Shown: positions 6,746 to 27,614 of the stretch, piece after piece
Numbering within the stretch: position 1 is the first letter of the stretch
Layout: every line of letters begins with the position of its first letter
Virus record (IMG/VR): IMGVR_UViG_3300009790_000028
Location: 1 to 39,094 of that record
DNA from: a virus
DNA length: 39,094 nt
Reading direction: 5' to 3' (one strand)
Position numbers and translations under genes: made by a program
The notes under the pieces: model-generated
What the model was told of the DNA's origin: nothing
The model's input: the letters and a program-made list of their open reading frames with translations, nothing else
The model's database searches: none

Positions 6746-7218
6746 TGAACGATTGGATAAATTGGTATAAAGAATTTAGAGAAACACATCCTACAATGAG
6801 TTCTCTTATATCTTTTCTAAAAGGATTGTTAATAGGTTTAATTGTTACTTGGTTATTTTGTGCTACTATGAGACCAGCACAGGCGGCCAACGAATACTTA
6901 AACAGCTACGGTCAACATTGTTCATCAGCTACATTAGAACCTTACATAGAATATAATGTAGACGAAAGTAGCAATAATGACAATTATAAAAGTGATACTA
7001 ATAGAGGAACTGTAGGTCTTAGATTATCTATTCCATTAGGATCAACTTGTTCAAAGAAGTATAAAAAGGTTTTCACTGAAAACGAGTTGCTACGTCAACA
7101 ATTAGAACTTCTAAAACTATGTGCTAGGTATCAAGACTTAGAACTAGGTGAAGCATTTGCTGAAGTAAGAGACAAGTGTGCCCAAGTTAGCAAAAAAGAA
7201 GAAAGTAAAGACAAGTAA
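6745..7218 (+). CDS. Exported or membrane protein with conserved-looking cysteines
   Basis: A 157-residue protein with an internal hydrophobic segment (about residues 23-40) ending MRPAQAANEY, which looks like a signal-peptidase site (AQA). The exported part has four cysteines and a short beta-like stretch GTVGLRLSIPLG, then a helical Leu-rich tail. It overlaps the stop of the preceding coiled-coil gene (TAATG), so the pair is likely to act together in the envelope. It might be an unusual spanin subunit or virion protein. Family not recognised. Confidence 0.6.
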   Translation: MNDWINWYKEFRETHPTMSSLISFLKGLLIGLIVTWLFCATMRPAQAANEYLNSYGQHCSSATLEPYIEYNVDESSNNDNYKSDTNRGTVGLRLSIPLGSTCSKKYKKVFTENELLRQQLELLKLCARYQDLELGEAFAEVRDKCAQVSKKEESKDK

Positions 7219-7369: not shown

Positions 7370-8185
7370 ATGACTCAATTAATAAACCCCACGAAGTTTA
7401 CAGATACAGTTGGCCTTTTAAGGTCATTTTTTTTGAGCAAAGGATTCTTAGAAGTCCATACTCAGAATAGACTATCAATACTCGCCGCTTGTGAAGATCC
7501 ATTCAATGTAGCGACTTACAATTACGAAGGGCAAGTTTGGCCCTTACCACAAACGGGCCAGATGTGGCTCGAACACGAACTATTAAGTAGCCCCTCTAGT
7601 AAGGGGTTTTTTTGTGTCTCCACTTCCTATAGGCAAGAACCAAATGCTATCCCAGGTAGACATGATACAATATTTCCAATGTTTGAATTTGAAATGCCAG
7701 GAACATTAGATGATCTAAAAGCAATGGAAGTAGAATTATGTAAGCATTTAGGATTTGATGACTTAACAGAAAAGACATATAAAGAATGGCAAGAACACTT
7801 TGGTGTTGATGGAGAGCTAGAAGCAAGACATGAAGAAACTATGTTTGAAAAGTATGGTAGTTGTATGATTACTAACTTTCCAGAGTTTACAAGTCCATTC
7901 TGGAATATGAAACGTTATGAAGATGGCGTTACAAGTAAGAAAATAGATGTAATACTAGGTGGAATGGAAACAATAGGTTCAGCAGAACGTTCAACTGATG
8001 TAGAACAGATGAGAGATACGTTTCATACAATTACTGATGGTGCTTATAGTAAGTTGCTATTCGAATTGTTTGGTAAAGAAAGAGTAGAGGCAGAGCTAGA
8101 GAAGTTCTTAGAGTTTGATTTCTTTCCACGTGTAGGTGGGGGAATTGGAATGACTAGAATGATTAGTGCCTTGGACACCCTATGA
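7370..8185 (+). CDS. Stand-alone class II aminoacyl-tRNA synthetase core, AsnRS-like (or AsnA-like)
   Basis: A 271-residue protein with the complete class II catalytic core. Motif 1-like FLSKGFLEVHTQ is at residues 21-32. LPQTGQMWLEHEL (59-71) corresponds to the AsnRS/AspRS amino-acid site. Motif 2 YRQEPNAIPGRHD (87-99) carries Arg88 and Glu90 and is followed by FPMFEFE. Motif 3 is GGGIGMTR (256-263) with Arg263. SPFWNMKRYEDG and GMETIGSAERS resemble AsnRS. Full AsnRS is about 430-470 residues; the N-terminal OB-fold anticodon-binding domain is absent. It may charge tRNA with Asn, or make asparagine like AsnA. AAAGGAAAAAAG precedes the ATG. A chimeric GUU tRNA follows 62 bases downstream, and a terminator-like hairpin lies inside the gene. 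Confidence 0.82.
   Translation: MTQLINPTKFTDTVGLLRSFFLSKGFLEVHTQNRLSILAACEDPFNVATYNYEGQVWPLPQTGQMWLEHELLSSPSSKGFFCVSTSYRQEPNAIPGRHDTIFPMFEFEMPGTLDDLKAMEVELCKHLGFDDLTEKTYKEWQEHFGVDGELEARHEETMFEKYGSCMITNFPEFTSPFWNMKRYEDGVTSKKIDVILGGMETIGSAERSTDVEQMRDTFHTITDGAYSKLLFELFGKERVEAELEKFLEFDFFPRVGGGIGMTRMISALDTL
7527..7560 (+). promoter_or_regulatory. Two mutually exclusive hairpins inside the synthetase gene
   Basis: AAGGGC (7527-7532) pairs with GCCCTT (7540-7545), or TGGCCC (7538-7543) pairs with GGGCCA (7555-7560). They share bases 7540-7543, so only one can form. They lie just upstream of a terminator-like hairpin, an arrangement like an attenuator switch. They are also coding sequence, so the pairing might be fortuitous. 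Confidence 0.4.
7591..7613 (+). terminator. Terminator-like hairpin inside the synthetase coding region
   Basis: CCCCT (7591-7595) and AGGGG (7602-7606) pair around CTAGTA and are followed directly by seven T. This is an intrinsic-terminator shape about 220 bases into the ORF. The codons are CCC and GGG, both rare in this AT-rich genome. It may attenuate transcription of the synthetase and of the tRNA downstream. Confidence 0.5.
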
Positions 8186-8244
8186 GTAAAGAAGAATATA
8201 AAAAGTACGTTGAGCTATTAAAAAGGATAGCAAACGTAAAATAA
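8182..8244 (+). CDS. 20-residue ORF coupled to the synthetase gene
   Basis: Encodes MSKEEYKKYVELLKRIANVK, a short basic amphipathic helix. Its ATG overlaps the synthetase stop (ATGA) and it ends 3 bases before the tRNA. It could be a real microprotein, a helper that binds the tRNA or synthetase, or merely a translated spacer. No known family. Confidence 0.4.
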   Translation: MSKEEYKKYVELLKRIANVK

Positions 8245-8247
8245 TAA

Positions 8248-8334
8248 TCTAGGGTGGTGGAATTGGTAGACACGATAGACTGTTTATCTATTACTCAAAC
8301 GAGTGTGGAGGTTCGAGTCCTCCCCCTAGAGCCA
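8248..8334 (+). tRNA. Chimeric tRNA: leucine-type body with Asn anticodon GUU and encoded CCA
   Basis: The cloverleaf is clear. Acceptor TCTAGGG (8248-8254) pairs with CCCTAGA (8324-8330). D-arm GTGGAATTGGTAGACAC is nearly identical to bacterial tRNA-Leu. Anticodon stem ATAGA/TCTAT (8275-8279, 8287-8291) closes loop CTGTTTA, anticodon GTT at 8282-8284. The long variable arm (8292-8306) has stem ACTC/GAGT, and the T-arm is GGAGG-TTCGAGT-CCTCC. Discriminator is G73 (8331), as in tRNA-Asn, not A73 as in tRNA-Leu, and CCA is encoded. Position 37 is U, where a purine is normal. The anticodon and G73 are AsnRS identity elements; the body is class II. It sits in the synthetase transcript and must be excised from it. 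Confidence 0.88.
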
Positions 8335-8351
8335 AATAGAAGGACAAATAA

Positions 8352-8744
8352 ATGAAATTATTTCAAGATGGAGATTTTACAAGTCATGCTGGGCTACCTT
8401 TAAAATGGAAGTTAGAGTGTGATGCTATTACAGACGAAGAATGGAGATGTATAGCAAAGATGATTATGGATTATCAAACGGAGCCTTTTTCTAAAGCGGT
8501 AGGAATACCTAGAGGTGGATTAAAATTAGCAGAAGCATTACAACCTTATGCTTCTAATAATTCCAGTGATCAAGTTTTAATTTGTGATGATGTGTTTACT
8601 ACTGGAACAAGTATGGTAGACTTTATTAAAGAACATTATCCTAACTGGACTAGGGCTATGGGACATAGGTGGGTAGTATTTGCTCGTAATAAATCTTATG
8701 TTGATCCTTATTATACAAGAGCTTTGTTTCAAATGCCTGTATAA
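8352..8744 (+). CDS. Phosphoribosyltransferase-like protein
   Basis: A 130-residue protein with the PRPP-binding signature VLICDDVFTTGTS at residues 75-87 (two acidic residues followed by TTGTS) and an upstream SKAVGIPRGGLKLAEAL that forms the family's flexible loop region. This is the type I PRTase fold, found in orotate, adenine and hypoxanthine phosphoribosyltransferases; the base cannot be chosen from sequence alone. GAAGGAC precedes the ATG, 17 bases after the tRNA end. It probably belongs to the synthetase-tRNA transcript and could serve nucleotide salvage. Confidence 0.8.
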   Translation: MKLFQDGDFTSHAGLPLKWKLECDAITDEEWRCIAKMIMDYQTEPFSKAVGIPRGGLKLAEALQPYASNNSSDQVLICDDVFTTGTSMVDFIKEHYPNWTRAMGHRWVVFARNKSYVDPYYTRALFQMPV

Positions 8745-8748
8745 GTTT

Positions 8749-8823
8749 TGGTATTCCCTAGGAGAATCGAACTCCTCTTTTCAGGATGAAAACCTGATGT
8801 CCTAACCGATAGACGAAGGGAAC
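8749..8823 (-). tRNA. tRNA-Glu (UUC) with encoded CCA
   Basis: Acceptor GTTCCCT (8823-8817) pairs with AGGGAAT, with a G-U pair at 1-72. D-arm region CGTCTATCGGTTAGGAC is typical of tRNA-Glu. Anticodon stem TCAGG/CCTGA closes loop TTTTCAT with anticodon TTC (plus-strand 8788-8790 reads gaa). The T-arm is GAGGAGTTCGATTCTCCT. CCA is encoded (8749-8751). The discriminator is A73, where bacterial tRNA-Glu usually has G. It lies convergent to the phosphoribosyltransferase gene. Confidence 0.92.
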
Positions 8824-12376: not shown

Positions 12377-13095
12377 GTTATAGGTTCTCCTTTTTTTATA
12401 TAAGATTCTGTTACATAGCTTTCAATTCCATTTTTATCTACGTACGGATAAAGAGGTAGAGGCACTTCCGCCACCTCTTCTTTATTAACAGGTTGATATT
12501 CAACTTTTACATTATGAAATATATGTGTAATGTCACATTTAGATTCTAGAGTATAAACTCCAAATTTGAAATAAGGTGGTGATGTTATTAGTTTTCTAGT
12601 AGATGCTAGGTATTTGTTGTCAATGTAAAAATCAACATTAATAAAGTCTTTACGATATTTTATCTCTACTCTAAGATTAAATAAGTTTGTTGCTTTAACA
12701 TCTGGTATGTCTCTTGGTTCAATACGAAACTCTTTATGCTCATTAATAACTAGCTTGATATAATTCTCAGGTTCTTCATAGCCATCTTCCCAATGTAATT
12801 GCCACATACAATTACTATTTCCTTCTATTTGATCAGCTTCTATACGAATGTCGCCGGACCAGATATAATCTCCTTCAACAATAGAAGATGACGTGGCTTC
12901 ACATCTTTCTTTAAAATTATACAATAAGTTACCTTCTGGATCATATGCTGGAAGATCGTCACCAGGGCTTTTTCCAGGAACACCTTTTTTAATTTTAAAA
13001 ACAAATTTATTATTTGTATTGTCGTGTTCGTCTCGAGTGTATAGATATTCGCTGTCACAACTGGGCCTCCAAAACTTATCGTTGGATAATATCAT
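12373..13095 (-). CDS. Concanavalin-like (polysaccharide-lyase type) beta-sandwich protein
   Basis: A 240-residue protein. The pattern KERCEATSSSIVEGDYIWSG, then NCMWQLHWEDGYEEPEN, LRVEIKYRKDFINVDFYIDN and YFKFGVYTLESK matches the jelly-roll arrangement of heparin-lyase-like or glucanase-like domains (Gln/His/Trp strand, then a short ligand-side strand and a final lysine/tyrosine strand). It could bind or cut surface glycan, perhaps as a tail-associated protein. It overlaps the radical SAM gene by 4 bases. Catalytic residues cannot be confirmed. Confidence 0.5.
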   Translation of the reverse strand: MILSNDKFWRPSCDSEYLYTRDEHDNTNNKFVFKIKKGVPGKSPGDDLPAYDPEGNLLYNFKERCEATSSSIVEGDYIWSGDIRIEADQIEGNSNCMWQLHWEDGYEEPENYIKLVINEHKEFRIEPRDIPDVKATNLFNLRVEIKYRKDFINVDFYIDNKYLASTRKLITSPPYFKFGVYTLESKCDITHIFHNVKVEYQPVNKEEVAEVPLPLYPYVDKNGIESYVTESYIKKGEPIT

Positions 13096-14390
13096 GTTGT
13101 AAGACCGCCATCTAATGAAATTCTATCTTCTTTTTTGTTTCTAAGTTCTTGTACAATACTTCCACAGTTGTCTACACAAATTTCCATTCTAGGTTTAACA
13201 GGATCATCAGTACGATTGTTCCAACTGTCTTGTAAGTCTGTTTGAAAAAACTTATGTCCTAGTACATCTTCTAATGTGTGATGACTAGTATAGTTCCACT
13301 TGTCATCATATTTAGAAACATAGTTGTTGTGGTATGTATTGTTAGGTGTACCATCTGGGTTAGCTACATCTTTACGCCATGCTCTAGCAAAGTATGATGT
13401 AAAATGACAACAAACGTGTACACGACCATCCCATTCAATTTGTAACTTACCTTCGTTACCCCATGAGCACCAAATGTTACAGTTGTTGGCATAGTCTTCC
13501 ATACTGTTATCAAACTTTTCTACAACAAGTTTTTTAGCTTTCGCCTCCATAGACTTGTAATGATCTTCAGGTGGCTTATGTGATTTGTTTTCAAACTTTT
13601 TCTTTTTAACTTTACTAAAGCCTTCATGATCAAAGTCTGTTTCTTTTTCTTTTACACTTACTACACCTGTTTCAATTGCTTTTTCTCTCAATTGATTACT
13701 AATTCTTTCAGCCCATCTACTACGTCTTACATCAATTCTAACAAAGCCTAATTCTTTTGCTAATCTTTTTGCTTCTTCTATTTGATGTTTGTTATGATCA
13801 AACTCAATAATTTGCCATATAGCTTTACCACCAGCCTCCATAAAGTAACGAGCATTTTCTAATACTTTTTCATATGAACAGCCTCTACGATATAGTTGAT
13901 GTGTTTTATCATCAGTACCATCTAAAGCAAATATTAATTCTGAGTTGTTAGGGTTATATCTTTGACTTGCTAAATGTCCTAGGTCAGTCCAAAATTCTTT
14001 GTTTCTCATAGCACCGTTAGTACTAACCCATAAGTCAGTTCTACTGTTACGACCATTCTTTAATCTCTGTGACTTTACACTATCACTTACGTCAGCAATA
14101 TAATGAAGTATCTCAATCATATCTGGGTGATTAATAGCGTCACCAAATGAACCATTTAAGTCTAATGTTTTAAGTCCACCCATTACTGTAGGAGTAAAGA
14201 TATTCTTAATAGTACTCATAGGCATATTACCAGCACTACCTACTTTAATAGCTGGGTTAGGGTCGCCTTCTTTTAAATCTAAATGTGGTATGTCGCCTGA
14301 AACTCTTCTAAGACATTGTGGACAGAAACTATTACAGTTTGCTGTAATTTCTATTGTAATTCTTCGGAGTAATTTAGGGTCTAAGAACAT
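13092..14390 (-). CDS. Radical SAM protein with SPASM-like C-terminal cysteines
   Basis: A 432-residue radical SAM enzyme. Cys19-X3-Cys23-X2-Cys26 in EITANCNSFCPQCLRR binds the 4Fe-4S cluster for SAM cleavage. DGTDDKTHQLYRRG and the basic VRRSRWAERI are shared with a paralog at 26370-27614. A C-terminal cysteine set (CNIWCSWGNEGKL, RVHVCCHFTSY, ICVDNCGS) suggests an auxiliary cluster as in SPASM proteins that modify peptides. A late-type promoter precedes it, and a lectin-fold gene follows with overlap. The substrate, perhaps a virion protein, is unknown. Confidence 0.85.
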   Translation of the reverse strand: MFLDPKLLRRITIEITANCNSFCPQCLRRVSGDIPHLDLKEGDPNPAIKVGSAGNMPMSTIKNIFTPTVMGGLKTLDLNGSFGDAINHPDMIEILHYIADVSDSVKSQRLKNGRNSRTDLWVSTNGAMRNKEFWTDLGHLASQRYNPNNSELIFALDGTDDKTHQLYRRGCSYEKVLENARYFMEAGGKAIWQIIEFDHNKHQIEEAKRLAKELGFVRIDVRRSRWAERISNQLREKAIETGVVSVKEKETDFDHEGFSKVKKKKFENKSHKPPEDHYKSMEAKAKKLVVEKFDNSMEDYANNCNIWCSWGNEGKLQIEWDGRVHVCCHFTSYFARAWRKDVANPDGTPNNTYHNNYVSKYDDKWNYTSHHTLEDVLGHKFFQTDLQDSWNNRTDDPVKPRMEICVDNCGSIVQELRNKKEDRISLDGGLTT

Positions 14391-15727: not shown

Positions 15728-16144
15728 CTAGTTGCCCGCCATTGGGTTTGCTGGTTCAAATGTTGCTATAGAACCAAACACTTCTTCTGGACATTCATCT
15801 GATACTGCTAGAATATCTTTTGGGTCAGCTCGTCTAAGTTTTCTAATTTCACCAGTATCAGAATCTTCAAAGTCAATTCCTCTACTCCAACGACCGTGGT
15901 CAATTAATATCCAATCGCCAACTTTGTAGTCGTCTTTGTTTGCTGGTCCTTTAGCATAGACTCTACCCCAACGAGCTTTAATCCCTTCGTCTGTTCCATC
16001 ATCTGATTGAATAATAATTCCACCTGATGTTGTTCTTTCTCCGAAGTTCATATCTTCGATGATAACATTATCCTTTATAGGAATAAGTTTACCTTTGATG
16101 GCGTTTAATTGTTGTACTTTGCCACCGATCTTACTAGTATCCAT
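15728..16144 (-). CDS. GroES-like co-chaperonin (T4 gp31 counterpart)
   Basis: A 138-residue protein with the GroES fold pattern: LIPIKDNVIIEDMNFGERTT and a mobile-loop-like GGIIIQSDDGTDEGIKARWGRVYAKGP, followed by YKVGDWILIDHGRW and ILAVSDE. GroES is about 95 residues; extra N- and C-terminal tails are present here as in T4 gp31, which replaces GroES for folding the major capsid protein with GroEL. It overlaps the upstream acidic protein by one base. Confidence 0.88.
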   Translation of the reverse strand: MDTSKIGGKVQQLNAIKGKLIPIKDNVIIEDMNFGERTTSGGIIIQSDDGTDEGIKARWGRVYAKGPANKDDYKVGDWILIDHGRWSRGIDFEDSDTGEIRKLRRADPKDILAVSDECPEEVFGSIATFEPANPMAGN

Positions 16145-18533: not shown

Positions 18534-19071
18534 TTAATTTTCCTATTTTATTAAAACCTATTTCTCTACATACATTATTTAAGCCTTGATCTAATGAGTC
18601 ATACCCATTAACGATATTCCAAGAATCAGGATCAATTACTTTAAAACTAAAATCTTCTAACACTAATACATTCCATGTTTCTAAATCACAATGGCACCAA
18701 AACTTATTATCTGGCAAACTTTTACTAAACTCTAATCCATCATTCCAACAAGTAGTTAATGTCTTTAACAAGTTTATTCCATGTTCTTTAGTAAATGGAA
18801 CGTCTTGTAGTATTGTTTTATGATCGATCCATTGTGCTACTGTGCCATAGTTGGGTATGTATTCCATAGAATAATAATCATCACCTATCTCTTCTACTCT
18901 AAGGTATTTGTTATTTTGCTGTTGAAAACGTCTGTAACAATCGTACCATTCGACTGATGGTTTACGTTGTAATAACTTCTTAACCATAACGTTTTTATTA
19001 GCATCATACCTTACTAACGACACATTGTCGTTCTTAAATATTTGATCAGGGCTTGGCTTAACGATATCCAA
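18526..19071 (-). CDS. Kinase-fold protein (aminoglycoside/choline kinase-like)
   Basis: A 181-residue protein with a short kinase-like C-lobe. His127-Cys-Asp129-Leu-Glu-Thr-Trp-Asn134 is a Brenner-type HxDxxxxN catalytic loop, and VIDPDSW (145-151) supplies the metal-binding Asp as DFG equivalent. KNVMVKKLL (26-34) and YYSMEYIPNYGTVAQ resemble the N-lobe and hinge of APH/choline-kinase-like proteins. It is shorter than typical members (about 260+), so the N-lobe is minimal. The substrate (small molecule or protein) is unknown. It overlaps RpiB by 14 bases. Confidence 0.7.
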   Translation of the reverse strand: MDIVKPSPDQIFKNDNVSLVRYDANKNVMVKKLLQRKPSVEWYDCYRRFQQQNNKYLRVEEIGDDYYSMEYIPNYGTVAQWIDHKTILQDVPFTKEHGINLLKTLTTCWNDGLEFSKSLPDNKFWCHCDLETWNVLVLEDFSFKVIDPDSWNIVNGYDSLDQGLNNVCREIGFNKIGKLNV

Positions 19072-19540
19072 ACTTCTTTAACCTTTTAGTGTGCCTACCA
19101 CCTTCAAAGTCAGTAGTTAAAAATGCTTCTACTATTTTGTTTGCTTGTCTAGGAGTAGTAAAGTCAGCACCTAAACAAAGAACGTTGGCGTTGTTATGTA
19201 GTCTAGCCATTTTTGCTTCTTGTGTTGTTCTTACTGTAACAGCTCTAACATAAGGAAGTCTATTAGCGGCCATACATACACCAAAGCCTGATCCACATAT
19301 TAAAATGCCTCTGTTAAAACATTGCCAGTCTGCATTTTTCTTATCTGGTGTTTCTAATTCTTTAGCTAAAGCCTGAACTGTATCAGGATAGTCTACATTA
19401 ATTAATTCAGTATGTGGTCCAGTATCTAAGAAAGTTGTAATATTAAATTTTGTTTCTTTATCGATAGGTGTTAAATAATTTGTTAGATGTTCTTTAAGTT
19501 CGTAGCCTCTGTGATCTGAGCCAATTACTAAATCAATCAT
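19058..19540 (-). CDS. rpiB: Ribose-5-phosphate isomerase B-like (RpiB/LacAB family)
   Basis: A 160-residue protein with RpiB landmarks: IGSDHRGYELKEHL at the N-terminus (phosphate/substrate loop), LICGSGFGVCMAANR (79-93) with the catalytic Cys region and Gly loop, and ARLHNNANVLCLGADF. RpiB interconverts ribulose- and ribose-5-phosphate, which feeds PRPP and nucleotide synthesis. It overlaps MazG (ATGA) and the kinase-like gene, so the three form a tight unit. A host-derived metabolic gene. Confidence 0.92.
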   Translation of the reverse strand: MIDLVIGSDHRGYELKEHLTNYLTPIDKETKFNITTFLDTGPHTELINVDYPDTVQALAKELETPDKKNADWQCFNRGILICGSGFGVCMAANRLPYVRAVTVRTTQEAKMARLHNNANVLCLGADFTTPRQANKIVEAFLTTDFEGGRHTKRLKKFGYR

Positions 19541-19941
19541 AGGTCCCCTTCTTTACGATTCTCTGAATAGTGTACATCAAATTCTCCACCAGGGTAACGT
19601 GACTTTAGTTTGTTTACGTTTTCCTCTATCACTTCATTTGGGTCAAGACCCAATGCCCTACAAGAATTAACCCAGTACCACATAATATCACCAAGTTCTC
19701 GTTTAGCATGAAATTTAGTTTCATCATCCAATGGCTTACCTTGAAATATACATTTCTTAACAATTTCAGCAAACTCTCCTCCTTCACTAGCTAATCCGAT
19801 AGCACCTGTTAGAAGTAACGCCATGTTATTTCCAGTAGTAGCATCTAATATCTTCAGGTGAGTTGTTAAAGCGTCTGTGTTACCCGATTCCTTACTTGTA
19901 ACTTCTTTAACAAAATCCGAATAGTTGTTTAAAATAGTCAT
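19537..19941 (-). CDS. mazG: MazG-like nucleoside triphosphate pyrophosphohydrolase
   Basis: A 134-residue all-helical protein. GGEFAEIVKKCIFQGKPLDD and KRELGDIMWYWVNSCRALGL carry the EExx(12)ExxD metal-binding pattern of the MazG/HisE-like fold, and EENVNKLKSRYPGGEF is the usual C-terminus. Phage MazG enzymes hydrolyse dNTPs or ppGpp-like nucleotides. The ATG follows GGAGGAAA and the gene is first after a good promoter. Confidence 0.9.
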   Translation of the reverse strand: MTILNNYSDFVKEVTSKESGNTDALTTHLKILDATTGNNMALLLTGAIGLASEGGEFAEIVKKCIFQGKPLDDETKFHAKRELGDIMWYWVNSCRALGLDPNEVIEENVNKLKSRYPGGEFDVHYSENRKEGDL

Positions 19942-25122: not shown

Positions 25123-25455
25123 TTAAACGGCGAATGATTCGCCACAACCACAAGACGCTTTTGCCTGTGGATTCTTTACAGCTAGGTATGATCCGCCTAG
25201 TTCTGTAATATAGTCAATAGTACTACCTAAAACATACATTTCGGCTATACGAGCAATTAATAACTTGTTCTGTGAGCTCTCGCTTAAAGGTACTTCAATC
25301 CAGTCCTCATTAGCGTCTTTTTCGTTAGCAAATTTCCATTCATATGTAAAACCACTACAACCTCCACCTTTTACTGTAAAAGTGGCGTATCTACTGTTGT
25401 TATCACCAGTAGCTTTTAATAGATAATCTTTTGCTTTGTCTGTTACTTGTATCAT
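25123..25455 (-). CDS. A-type Fe-S carrier (IscA/SufA/HesB-like)
   Basis: A 110-residue protein of the HesB/IscA fold. The three cluster cysteines are Cys33 in GGGCSGFTYEW and the pair Cys102/Cys104 in SCGCGESF at the C-terminus. Such proteins carry 2Fe-2S or 4Fe-4S clusters to apo-enzymes. It overlaps the DUF59 gene by 4 bases and lies in a unit with a ferredoxin and a radical SAM enzyme, which need clusters. Confidence 0.92.
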   Translation of the reverse strand: MIQVTDKAKDYLLKATGDNNSRYATFTVKGGGCSGFTYEWKFANEKDANEDWIEVPLSESSQNKLLIARIAEMYVLGSTIDYITELGGSYLAVKNPQAKASCGCGESFAV

Positions 25456-25883
25456 TTAAAATTCCAACTGTCGAAGCTAGGTTCAGGCGTTTCATATCCC
25501 ATTCCTAACTCTAATTGTGCCAATTCGCTGGCGTGTTCGGGTCCGAAAGTAGGTTGAAATGTCATCTCTACCTTAACTGTATTTATTGTTGTTACCTTCT
25601 CCACTGCTTCTTTTACCCATTGTGGCATCTCTCCTGCTACTGGACAAAATGGGCTAGTTAGCGTCATTATTATATCACAGTTGTTATCATTATCAATATC
25701 CATTTTATATATAAGACCTAAGTCATGAACATTAATATGAATTTCAGGATCAAATACTTTCCTTAAATTAGCTTTAACGTGTTCTGCTTGTTCTACATTT
25801 CCGTTTGTAGTAATCCAATCAAATGTACCATCTTCACTTCGATAACGATTATGGAAGTCTGGTTTTCTATCTGTATTAGTCAA
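25452..25883 (-). CDS. DUF59/MIP18-like Fe-S assembly factor
   Basis: A 143-residue protein. DPEIHINVHDLGLIYKMDID and MTLTSPFCPVAGEMPQWVKE, with Cys80, match the DUF59 (PaaD/SufT/MIP18) family involved in Fe-S protein maturation. It ends ELAQLELGMGYETPEPSFDSW. It lies between the IscA-like and ferredoxin genes with 4- and 8-base overlaps, so a coupled Fe-S function is likely. Confidence 0.88.
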   Translation of the reverse strand: MTNTDRKPDFHNRYRSEDGTFDWITTNGNVEQAEHVKANLRKVFDPEIHINVHDLGLIYKMDIDNDNNCDIIMTLTSPFCPVAGEMPQWVKEAVEKVTTINTVKVEMTFQPTFGPEHASELAQLELGMGYETPEPSFDSWNFK

Positions 25884-26196
25884 TGTGATTCACTTTCACG
25901 ACTAGTGTTTTATCTGGTACATCTCTAAGGTCAATTTGACAGCCTAGTCGACTACTGCCTTCTTTATATCCTGAAGCGAATTCTACTAGATACAATTCAT
26001 TTTCATCAGGACCTCCTGGTGGCATACCTTCTAATACTTCAACGTGGCAAGTGGCACATACACAAGAACCTCCACAAGTACCCCAAGGGTCTTTGCTAAA
26101 GTAATCGTATAGTGCCACCATAACGTTGTCGTTCGAGCCATACTTAACATCAAGCTCTCTGCCTGATCTAGTAATACACTTGAACGTCTTATCCAT
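25876..26196 (-). CDS. 2Fe-2S ferredoxin (adrenodoxin-like)
   Basis: A 106-residue protein with Cys41-X5-Cys47-X2-Cys50 (CGGSCVCATCH) and Cys86 (RLGCQI), the cluster ligands of vertebrate-type/adrenodoxin-like ferredoxins, plus an extra Cys45. It probably donates electrons to the radical SAM enzyme or to Fe-S assembly. It begins 2 bases after the upstream microprotein stop. The N-terminus is basic. Confidence 0.92.
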   Translation of the reverse strand: MDKTFKCITRSGRELDVKYGSNDNVMVALYDYFSKDPWGTCGGSCVCATCHVEVLEGMPPGGPDENELYLVEFASGYKEGSSRLGCQIDLRDVPDKTLVVKVNHID

Positions 26197-26369: not shown

Positions 26370-27614
26370 TTAAAGTTTTTCAACATCATAGCTTGAGATG
26401 TTGTTGTGACCTTCGCCACAATGTTCAACACAAACACTTAACTTCGGTAGGGTTAAATCTGTAGTAGAGTTACCCCAACTTTCTTCTAAGTCGTTCCTGT
26501 AAAACTTATGAGATAATATATCCTGTAACGGATTGTAATTTAGATTATTCCAATTACTGTTATAGGAGTCTGTCATCATCTCATATTCTCCACCATCAAA
26601 ACTACTGTCGATATTCTTACTCCAGAAGTTATTCATATAGTGGTTAAGGAAACAACATGGATGGACGAGTCCGTTAAATTCCACGTTAATCTTTCCTTTG
26701 TTACCCCAAATACAAGATATACTTGTATTCTCTTGGTAATCTTTATAATTCTTGTACTTGCTTTGTACTTCTTTTAGTTCTTTTTCTACTTTACTAGAAT
26801 CAGTAATGTATTTAATGTTTCCTGTTTTGGCATCGTCATATTTGACACGTTTATCTACTGATTTGGATTGGTATAGTTCTACAGTTTTTTCTTCTGCTTT
26901 TACATTTTTACCTAAATCTTTTATAGTATCTTGTATACTTAAACGTTCACCTCTACTACCTCGTAACCAAAATTCAGCAAAGCCTAAATCAGTTGCCATT
27001 TGTTTAGCGTCTAGTGTTTGATGTTTGTTATGATCAAACTGTAACCATTGCCATACAGCTCTACCACCAACACTCATATATGCTTTAGCATTTTCCATTA
27101 GCTTTGGCCAACTAACTGCTCTTCGGTACATTTGGTGTGTCTTATCATCTAATCCATCTATAGCAAATATAACTTTAGTCCAAGGTTGATGGAACTGTTT
27201 AGTTAGCTCTGCCATTTGTTTCCACCAATCAGGATTATGTAAACCTCCATTGGTAGCAATTTCTAATCCACATCTATCATTGCCAGCTTCTTTTAGTGTG
27301 TCAATTAAATGTTGAGTAAACTTAAAAATATCAGGATGTAATATAGCATCACCCCAAGTACCATTGTAGGTAATCATTTGTAAGTTTTTCATTGTTGTAG
27401 GATTGAATAAGTTTTGCCAAGCCTCCCAAGTAAAATGTCCTTTACTTCCTTGGAATGGTTTTATAGTAGGATTTAAATCACCTACCTTTAATGTTTTATC
27501 TTTGTTATCAGTATCACGTACCCAACGGTCACAAGCAGGACACATAGCATTACAATTGGCTGTTAGCTCTACTTGTATTGTTGTTGTACTTTGTAAACTG
27601 TATAACTTACTCAT
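26370..27614 (-). CDS. Radical SAM protein, paralog of the 13092-14390 enzyme
   Basis: A 414-residue radical SAM enzyme. Cys21-X3-Cys25-X2-Cys28 is in VELTANCNAMCPACDRW. The NGTWGDAILHPD, DGLDDKTHQMYRRAV and FDHNKHQTLD blocks match the paralog closely. The C-terminal Cys set (ISCIWGNKGKI, VHPCCFLNHY, VCVEHCGEG) suggests an auxiliary cluster. It is next to ferredoxin, IscA- and DUF59-like genes, consistent with a private Fe-S supply. The ATG overlaps the lysin stop. Substrate unknown, perhaps a phage or host peptide. Confidence 0.87.
   Translation of the reverse strand: MSKLYSLQSTTTIQVELTANCNAMCPACDRWVRDTDNKDKTLKVGDLNPTIKPFQGSKGHFTWEAWQNLFNPTTMKNLQMITYNGTWGDAILHPDIFKFTQHLIDTLKEAGNDRCGLEIATNGGLHNPDWWKQMAELTKQFHQPWTKVIFAIDGLDDKTHQMYRRAVSWPKLMENAKAYMSVGGRAVWQWLQFDHNKHQTLDAKQMATDLGFAEFWLRGSRGERLSIQDTIKDLGKNVKAEEKTVELYQSKSVDKRVKYDDAKTGNIKYITDSSKVEKELKEVQSKYKNYKDYQENTSISCIWGNKGKINVEFNGLVHPCCFLNHYMNNFWSKNIDSSFDGGEYEMMTDSYNSNWNNLNYNPLQDILSHKFYRNDLEESWGNSTTDLTLPKLSVCVEHCGEGHNNISSYDVEKL

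Follow-up and report, generated by a model that had tools for sequence, protein, structure and literature searches.

The sequence analysed here, hereafter the window, comes from IMG/VR, where it makes up a viral record of 39 kb that consists of a single contig (39,094 nucleotides). Two adjoining genes are the subject of this report. One encodes a minimal class IIb synthetase of 271 amino acids with an AsnRS-like catalytic core, which we call mini-AsnRS (7370-8185, + strand); the other, which begins after 62 bases, is a chimeric class II tRNA-Asn(GUU) with an encoded CCA end (8248-8334, +). The synthetase gene, absent from the original prediction, turned out to be the key to the locus.

The tRNA is named tRNA-Asn(gtt) by ARAGORN. 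Its cloverleaf is not reliably recovered by single-sequence folding. Covariance models recognise it, with scores of 51.7 bits for Rfam RF00005 (positions 8248-8331; E = 2.1e-8) and 95.9 bits for a custom model. The stems of the RF00005 alignment fix the anticodon as GUU, and the alternative register that the original prediction had allowed for was not found.

The anatomy of the molecule was read from the sequence. The acceptor stem is UCUAGGG/CCCUAGA (5' side at 8248-8254, +), in which U1 pairs with A72 (8330), and it is followed by the discriminator G73 (8331, +) and CCA. The stretch from U8 to position 26 (8255-8274, +) contains a leucine-type D-arm (GTGGAATTGGTAGACAC); the D-arm itself reads GUGGAAUUGGUAGACAC. 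The anticodon stem AUAGA/UCUAU closes a loop of seven nucleotides (C32 U33 G34 U35 U36 U37 A38), with the GUU anticodon at 8282-8284 (+) and U37 at 8285 (+); t6A is impossible when position 37 is U or C. The variable arm (8292-8306, +) is long (15 nt, with the 4-bp stem ACUC/GAGU) and has the architecture of tRNA-Leu, with one unpaired nucleotide on the 5' side and two on the 3' side. The T-arm is GGAGG-UUCGAGU-CCUCC, and every stem pair of the molecule is standard.

Other genes of the window deserve mention. A possible ORF of 20 codons (MSKEEYKKYVELLKRIANVK; 8182-8244, +), read from the sequence, overlaps the stop codon of the synthetase gene, and a similar ORF is present in only two other viral loci (L008 and L287). 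Directly after the tRNA lies a small gene (8352-8744, +) that resembles phosphoribosyltransferases and has a PRPP motif; its relatives are found in 17 loci, window copies included. An ordinary tRNA-Glu(UUC) follows on the opposite strand (8749-8823, −; ARAGORN, Rfam 56.6 bits). Also on the − strand are genes for two radical SAM proteins (13092-14390 and 26370-27614), one with a weak SPASM match; three consecutive iron-sulphur genes (Fe-S_biosyn, FeS_assembly_P and 2Fe-2S ferredoxin; 25123-26196); and genes for a GroES-like Cpn10 (15728-16144), an RpiB-like ribose isomerase (19058-19540) and a MazG pyrophosphohydrolase (19537-19941).

A catalytic core of AsnRS type that lacks the anticodon-binding domain

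The mini-AsnRS of the window matches the Pfam family tRNA-synt_2 (class II D, K and N; E = 1.4e-15) and belongs to PHROG 29758, a family of unknown function (E = 4.8e-137). Pfam, the length of 271 amino acids and an AlphaFold model made with the family alignment (mean pLDDT 90.7) agree that the protein is a catalytic core only, from which the N-terminal OB-fold anticodon-binding domain is absent. When the model was compared with the PDB using Foldseek, the top nine folds were all AsnRS, the first being Pyrococcus AsnRS with Asn-AMP (1x54). A sequence profile search of the PDB also placed AsnRS first (51 bits), and archaeal asparagine synthetase came last (23.7 bits).

The NCBIfam models of AsnRS did not match the window protein and scored far below cut-off for its relatives, while those of AspRS, LysRS and archaeal asparagine synthetase matched it only far below their cut-offs (for the last, NF005055, 19.7 bits versus 389 bits). 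In the phylogenetic tree the mini family is monophyletic (support 100/100), and its long branch lies within the AspRS/AsnRS group, inside neither of the two.

In AspRS, the lysine of the motif QSPQLFKQ binds the side chain of aspartate. Alignment with reference enzymes shows that mini-AsnRS carries QTGQMWLE at this place, matching the QxxQxxxE of AsnRS; that the aspartate of AspRS QIDVE (the D233 position) is replaced by glutamate (E106), as AsnRS has; and that ETIGSAER resembles EIIGGSQR of AsnRS. We take E106, QTGQMWLE and ETIGSAER to be substrate-recognition sites, on the basis of what is known of AspRS and AsnRS. The motif 3 acid of AsnRS is replaced by T, N, Q or P in the mini family, and the active-site residues could also be compatible with an asparagine synthetase or another ligase.

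All 242 complete enzymes found with the tRNA (175 distinct sequences) are intact and retain the active-site motifs, and a median dN/dS of 0.08 over 57 unsaturated pairs shows that the enzyme is under purifying selection. The enzymes of phages that carry the pair are acidic and have no obvious gained tRNA-binding element.

Conservation of the tRNA and its linkage to the enzyme

Among 143 distinct homologues of the tRNA from marine phages, the GUU anticodon, G73 and the U1:A72 pair are each found in 143. The anticodon triplet G34-U35-U36 shows zero variation, while its surroundings change. There is free variation at loop positions 32 and 38; position 37 has U in 123 homologues, A in 15 and C in 5, making it a pyrimidine in 128/143; and at position 33, 133 have U, 9 have C and one has G (non-U in 10/143). 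A cyanophage-like group has C33 in place of the near-universal U33, in the loop CCGUUUA, with GUU kept (downstream of the enzyme in L119, L140, L146, L151, L154, L168, L182, L188, L193 and L197). Variable arms span 11-44 nt across the homologues, and 140 of the 143 have the leucine-type geometry (one unpaired nucleotide 5' and two 3', or this arrangement plus an additional closing pair).

The pairing of the stems goes beyond chance. In an alignment of 34 sequences, 100% of the 680 stem cells pair, compared with 79% in shuffles; 15 of the 20 stem pairs have changed on both sides; and stem covariation is 0.59 versus 0.17, a level reached by none of 500 shuffles. As to the source of the scaffold, the D-arm region of the chimera in L002 is identical at 20/20 bases to that of a tRNA-Leu(UAG) on the same contig, which argues that the body of the chimera is derived from tRNA-Leu.

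These results uphold the features that the original prediction had singled out, namely a leucine-like D-arm, a long class II variable arm, and GUU and G73 as asparagine markings; U37, regarded there as abnormal, is confirmed as well and is typical of this family. The prediction had also considered that the homologues might have a normal leucine anticodon and that this copy might be a mutated pseudo-tRNA. Neither was borne out, as every homologue has GUU and stems covary around an invariant triplet. The related idea of a decayed tRNA-Leu or an annotation artefact, favoured by nothing other than the oddness of the tRNA, has a negligible probability: 143 distinct homologues, paired and covarying stems and the invariant triplet refute it.

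Standard tRNA callers miss or misname the long-arm members of the family, and the pair may have gone unnoticed for this reason. Beside the enzyme, ARAGORN gave the names tRNA-Asp (atc), tRNA-Ile (aat), tRNA-Glu (ctc) and an anticodon 'ttat'. We discarded these as mis-registrations caused by the long variable arms, since inspection by hand yielded GUU in all of them.

When IMG/VR was searched with the enzyme, at least 595 relatives were confirmed. From scans with the enzymes of the window, of P-SSM2 and of jumbo phages, 162 viral loci were retained, 157 of which have the tRNA or room for it; a scan with the enzyme of jumbo phage LR756508 gave no matches. Among the matches listed, the tRNA lies just downstream of the enzyme on the same strand in 151 of these 157 usable loci, and the median gap in the 151 is 16 nt. 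The reciprocal scan, which used a DNA pattern of the tRNA only and was thus blind to the enzyme, retrieved 116 contigs: the enzyme is directly upstream on the same strand in all 111 that have room for it, and in the remaining five the contig ends within 73 nt of the tRNA. Linkage is therefore nearly obligatory in both directions.

Six usable viral loci among the matches listed have the enzyme without the tRNA. Two of them (L087 and L088) are jumbo-phage relatives found on another branch of the tree, while the other four (L008, L026, L032 and L068) are inside the marine-phage clade and have probably lost the tRNA. An ordinary tRNA-Asn(GUU) was detected in three phages that bear the enzyme and not the chimera: the 146-kb phage of L026 and both jumbo phages. 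In L117, too, an ordinary tRNA-Asn follows the enzyme, at a distance of about 200 nt; a terminator-like hairpin lies between them, and we did not count this arrangement, which may be a coincidence. In another unpaired contig, L093, the tRNA has apparently been deleted leaving a remnant: downstream of a related enzyme, positions 6866-6885 contain the joined halves of an acceptor stem with the middle missing (TCCGGGG-TCCCCCGGA-G-CCA).

The phages that carry the pair fall into two or more deep branches, whose enzymes share 56-62% and 68-89% identity with that of the window; their group has a support of 95/94 and includes one unpaired cellular contig, L099. The cultured Prochlorococcus phages P-SSM2, P-SSM5 and P-SSM7 have the pair, labelled only as 'tRNA ligase' and 'tRNA-Asn'. 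In P-SSM7 it is located beside gp23 and other tRNAs, and in P-SSM2 between other genes. Because the genomic settings differ, the enzyme and tRNA genes move as a unit. The P-SSM2 enzyme is PSSM2_198 (YP_214430). For this phage, a single tRNA gene is listed in the 252 kb of its genome (PMC3037559), and it is the chimeric one. The RefSeq version of P-SSM2 (NC_006883.2) has its tRNA-Asn feature at 164094-164179, inside a CDS, about 2 kb off the real tRNA at 162083-162171; in the GU071092 version the feature is placed on the correct sequence.

Relatives of the enzyme are also found in Bacteroidota, Patescibacteria, Chlamydiae and Woesearchaeota, with 43-60% identity. No chimeric tRNA was found beside the enzyme in these bacterial and archaeal loci. 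When candidates elsewhere in the same genomes were considered, the best model matches that ARAGORN could name were ordinary tRNA-Leu. A full AsnRS over the cut-off is present in 16/25 of the cellular genomes with the mini enzyme, and GatB in 16/25. In 9/25 loci (L094, L095, L096, L101, L104, L106, L108, L110 and L115) the enzyme adjoins UMP synthase and/or dihydroorotate dehydrogenase. The unpaired state of the cellular relatives, the frequent presence of full AsnRS or GatCAB and the pyrimidine-synthesis neighbours suggest that the ancestral role of the family may have been metabolic rather than tRNA charging, and that the phage lineage may have adapted the core to serve a tRNA. A more specific proposal, that the cellular enzyme stands in for aspartate carbamoyltransferase where pyrimidine genes are nearby and PyrB is lacking, was rejected because PyrB is missing in 18/20 of the bacterial family considered next, whether or not the enzyme is present.

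A tRNA-like RNA of class II was observed in one Bacteroidota family of Chitinophagales type (L208, positions 1501-1618, and L355, L357, L361, L363 and L364). It has U1:A72, G73, a leucine-type D-arm and GUC in the anticodon loop; its variable region is about 45-65 nt or more, and two or three tandem copies are often present. ARAGORN did not call it, and in the four loci tested Rfam gave no match. We have left this RNA out of the evidence because its distribution is not tied to that of the enzyme: among 20 cases in this family the RNA occurs in 13, the enzyme in 6 and both in 4.

A proposed dedicated aminoacylation pair and its rivals

The interpretation that we favour, and regard as moderately probable, is that enzyme and tRNA make up an aminoacylation pair owned by the phage, in which a dedicated mini-AsnRS supplies Asn-tRNA for AAU and AAC codons and which is probably orthogonal to the host. 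One of two possibilities raised in the original prediction, charging of an altered tRNA by a synthetase that the phage itself encodes, is now strongly favoured because an intact gene for an AsnRS-like core lies directly upstream and is nearly inseparable from the tRNA across marine phages. It also speaks for a charging pair that phages with the enzyme and no chimera can have an ordinary tRNA-Asn(GUU), and that the chimera is the one tRNA listed for P-SSM2. From the linkage of the two genes we infer that mini-AsnRS forms Asn-tRNA. The enzyme would activate asparagine with ATP and, as it has no domain to read the anticodon, would recognise the acceptor end (U1:A72, G73) and probably also the leucine-type body of the adjacent tRNA. 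The Asn-tRNA(GUU) thus produced would decode AAU and AAC, and might allow asparagine codons to be read even if the host's tRNA-Asn, or its charging, becomes limiting or comes under attack.

Identity rules described in the literature are in line with this proposal. Asparagine identity in bacteria resides in the anticodon and G73, and transplanting just these elements moved the identity to another tRNA; A73 is crucial for leucine identity in E. coli, whose LeuRS needs it; and the GatCAB amidotransferase is directed by U1:A72 without U20a (PMC9976931). A class II body with G73 should thus keep the chimera off host LeuRS and perhaps off host AsnRS and AspRS, so that the pair would probably be host-orthogonal. 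Escape from host tRNA-cutting defences is a plausible reason for possessing a private set, since phage tRNAs with altered anticodon loops have been proposed to be tRNase-resistant (PMC10264068). An enzyme without the usual means of reading the anticodon would not keep GUU invariant, so either decoding of AAU and AAC or a reader from the host must be supposed; U37 (123/143) and C33 (9/143, in one lineage), on the other hand, are poor for decoding and count against the interpretation that we favour. The separate clade of the mini family, the acidic enzymes of paired phages and the unpaired cellular relatives weigh against it as well.

A host reader is the core of one alternative, which we consider rather unlikely: the tRNA would be charged by host AsnRS, or by a non-discriminating AspRS and then GatCAB, and mini-AsnRS would help in another manner, for instance in asparagine synthesis. 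This would account for the invariant GUU; the chimera displays every element of the host identity set, among them the amidotransferase determinants, U1:A72 and no U20a (PMC9976931), and asparagine synthetases are likewise an enzyme core without an anticodon domain (PMC3532385). However, the leucine-type, long-arm body and the tight gene linkage would be left unexplained, the active site is of AsnRS type and not of AspRS type, and archaeal asparagine synthetase scored far below AsnRS (23.7 vs 51 bits). Class II synthetases, in addition, approach the tRNA from the side of the variable arm, and a long arm may clash with this approach. An indirect route in which mini-AsnRS itself loads aspartate and a host amidotransferase converts it to asparagine on the tRNA seems quite unlikely. 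The U1:A72 pair in 143/143 and a D-loop GGUA without U20a are what GatCAB selects (PMC9976931), but U1:A72 is the normal pair of bacterial tRNA-Asn anyway, and the lysine of QSPQLFKQ and the aspartate at the D233 position have given way to AsnRS-type residues, with AsnRS-type motifs kept in all 242 intact enzymes.

The other possibility raised in the original prediction, a non-decoding job, admits two forms: the charged tRNA might mainly supply an amino acid to some reaction outside the ribosome, or might divert anticodon nucleases as a decoy. Drift at decoding positions (a pyrimidine at 37 in 128/143, non-U at 33 in 10/143) fits this idea, as do the altered loops proposed to protect phage tRNAs from host tRNases (PMC10264068). 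The strict conservation of G34-U35-U36 in 143 sequences speaks against it, as a donor would not need that triplet, and nuclease resistance is compatible with decoding and overlaps with the dedicated pair. We thus regard a mainly non-decoding function as unlikely. It is decidedly unlikely that something other than plain asparagine is loaded, making AAU and AAC conditionally ambiguous during infection; if true, some phage proteins would contain a different residue at asparagine codons. Outright mistranslation, with host LeuRS or SerRS charging the chimera so that leucine or serine is inserted at asparagine codons, as proposed for nematode nev-tRNAs, is very improbable. The leucine-type body and variable arm speak for it, nev-tRNAs accept leucine in vitro despite their alien anticodons (PMC4300185), and a change from A73 to G73 can switch leucine to serine identity (PMC9976931). 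Nevertheless, A73 is missing in 143/143, making leucylation unlikely; most bacterial tRNA-Ser conserve G1-C72 (PMC9976931), unlike the U1:A72 found here in 143/143; the variable-arm geometry is leucine-type in 140/143; and the paired AsnRS-like enzyme would remain unexplained.

Comparison with known systems

The usual explanation of phage tRNAs is that they supplement the codon supply and rely on host enzymes for loading. In this case the virus appears to carry both components, and the tRNA is built on a scaffold that should not be easily accepted by either of the normal partners. The pair therefore offers a clean test of what phage tRNAs are for, codon supply or escape from tRNA-cutting defences, and its presence in cultured cyanophages makes it testable now. 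It also illustrates a natural transfer of tRNA identity between scaffold classes, and it is a small candidate orthogonal pair, probably blind to the anticodon, that would be useful for codon reassignment. In a literature that was mainly open-licence, we did not find a class II tRNA-Asn or its pairing in phages with an AsnRS-like core lacking the anticodon domain. Precedents do exist singly: for a synthetase and its tRNA encoded as a gene pair, for tRNAs in phages, and for class II tRNAs that bear a foreign anticodon.

The chimera shares GUU, G73, U1:A72 and a D-loop without U20a with bacterial tRNA-Asn(GUU), whose loop CUGUUAA is common to some members of the family. It differs in having a long arm and a leucine-type D-arm instead of a class I body with a short variable loop, and mostly U37 (A37 in only 15/143) instead of A37(t6A). 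With tRNA-Leu it has in common the D-arm, the variable-arm architecture (one plus two unpaired nucleotides) and the 7/5 geometry; tRNA-Leu, however, has A73 and a leucine anticodon in place of G73, U1:A72 and GUU. Nematode nev-tRNAs (PMC4300185) also combine class II bodies with anticodons other than those of Leu, Ser or Tyr, but they accept leucine in vitro and lack a synthetase of their own, whereas the phage chimera has G73 and a linked private synthetase.

On the enzyme side, mini-AsnRS has the class IIb catalytic fold and the Asn-type binding residues of AsnRS, from which it differs by the lack of the N-terminal OB-fold, by its separate long-branch clade and by scores far below the NCBIfam cut-offs. 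The archaeal asparagine synthetase AS-AR (3p8t) and EpmA are also catalytic cores without an anticodon-binding domain, and their similarity to mini-AsnRS is only weak; we know of no partner tRNA gene for either. A parallel in organisation is provided by PylRS and tRNA-Pyl, a mobile, dedicated and host-orthogonal synthetase-tRNA gene pair. Both are dedicated pairs, but PylRS/tRNA-Pyl is devoted to UAG and a non-canonical amino acid, while the phage pair combines a sense anticodon with an AsnRS-like core.
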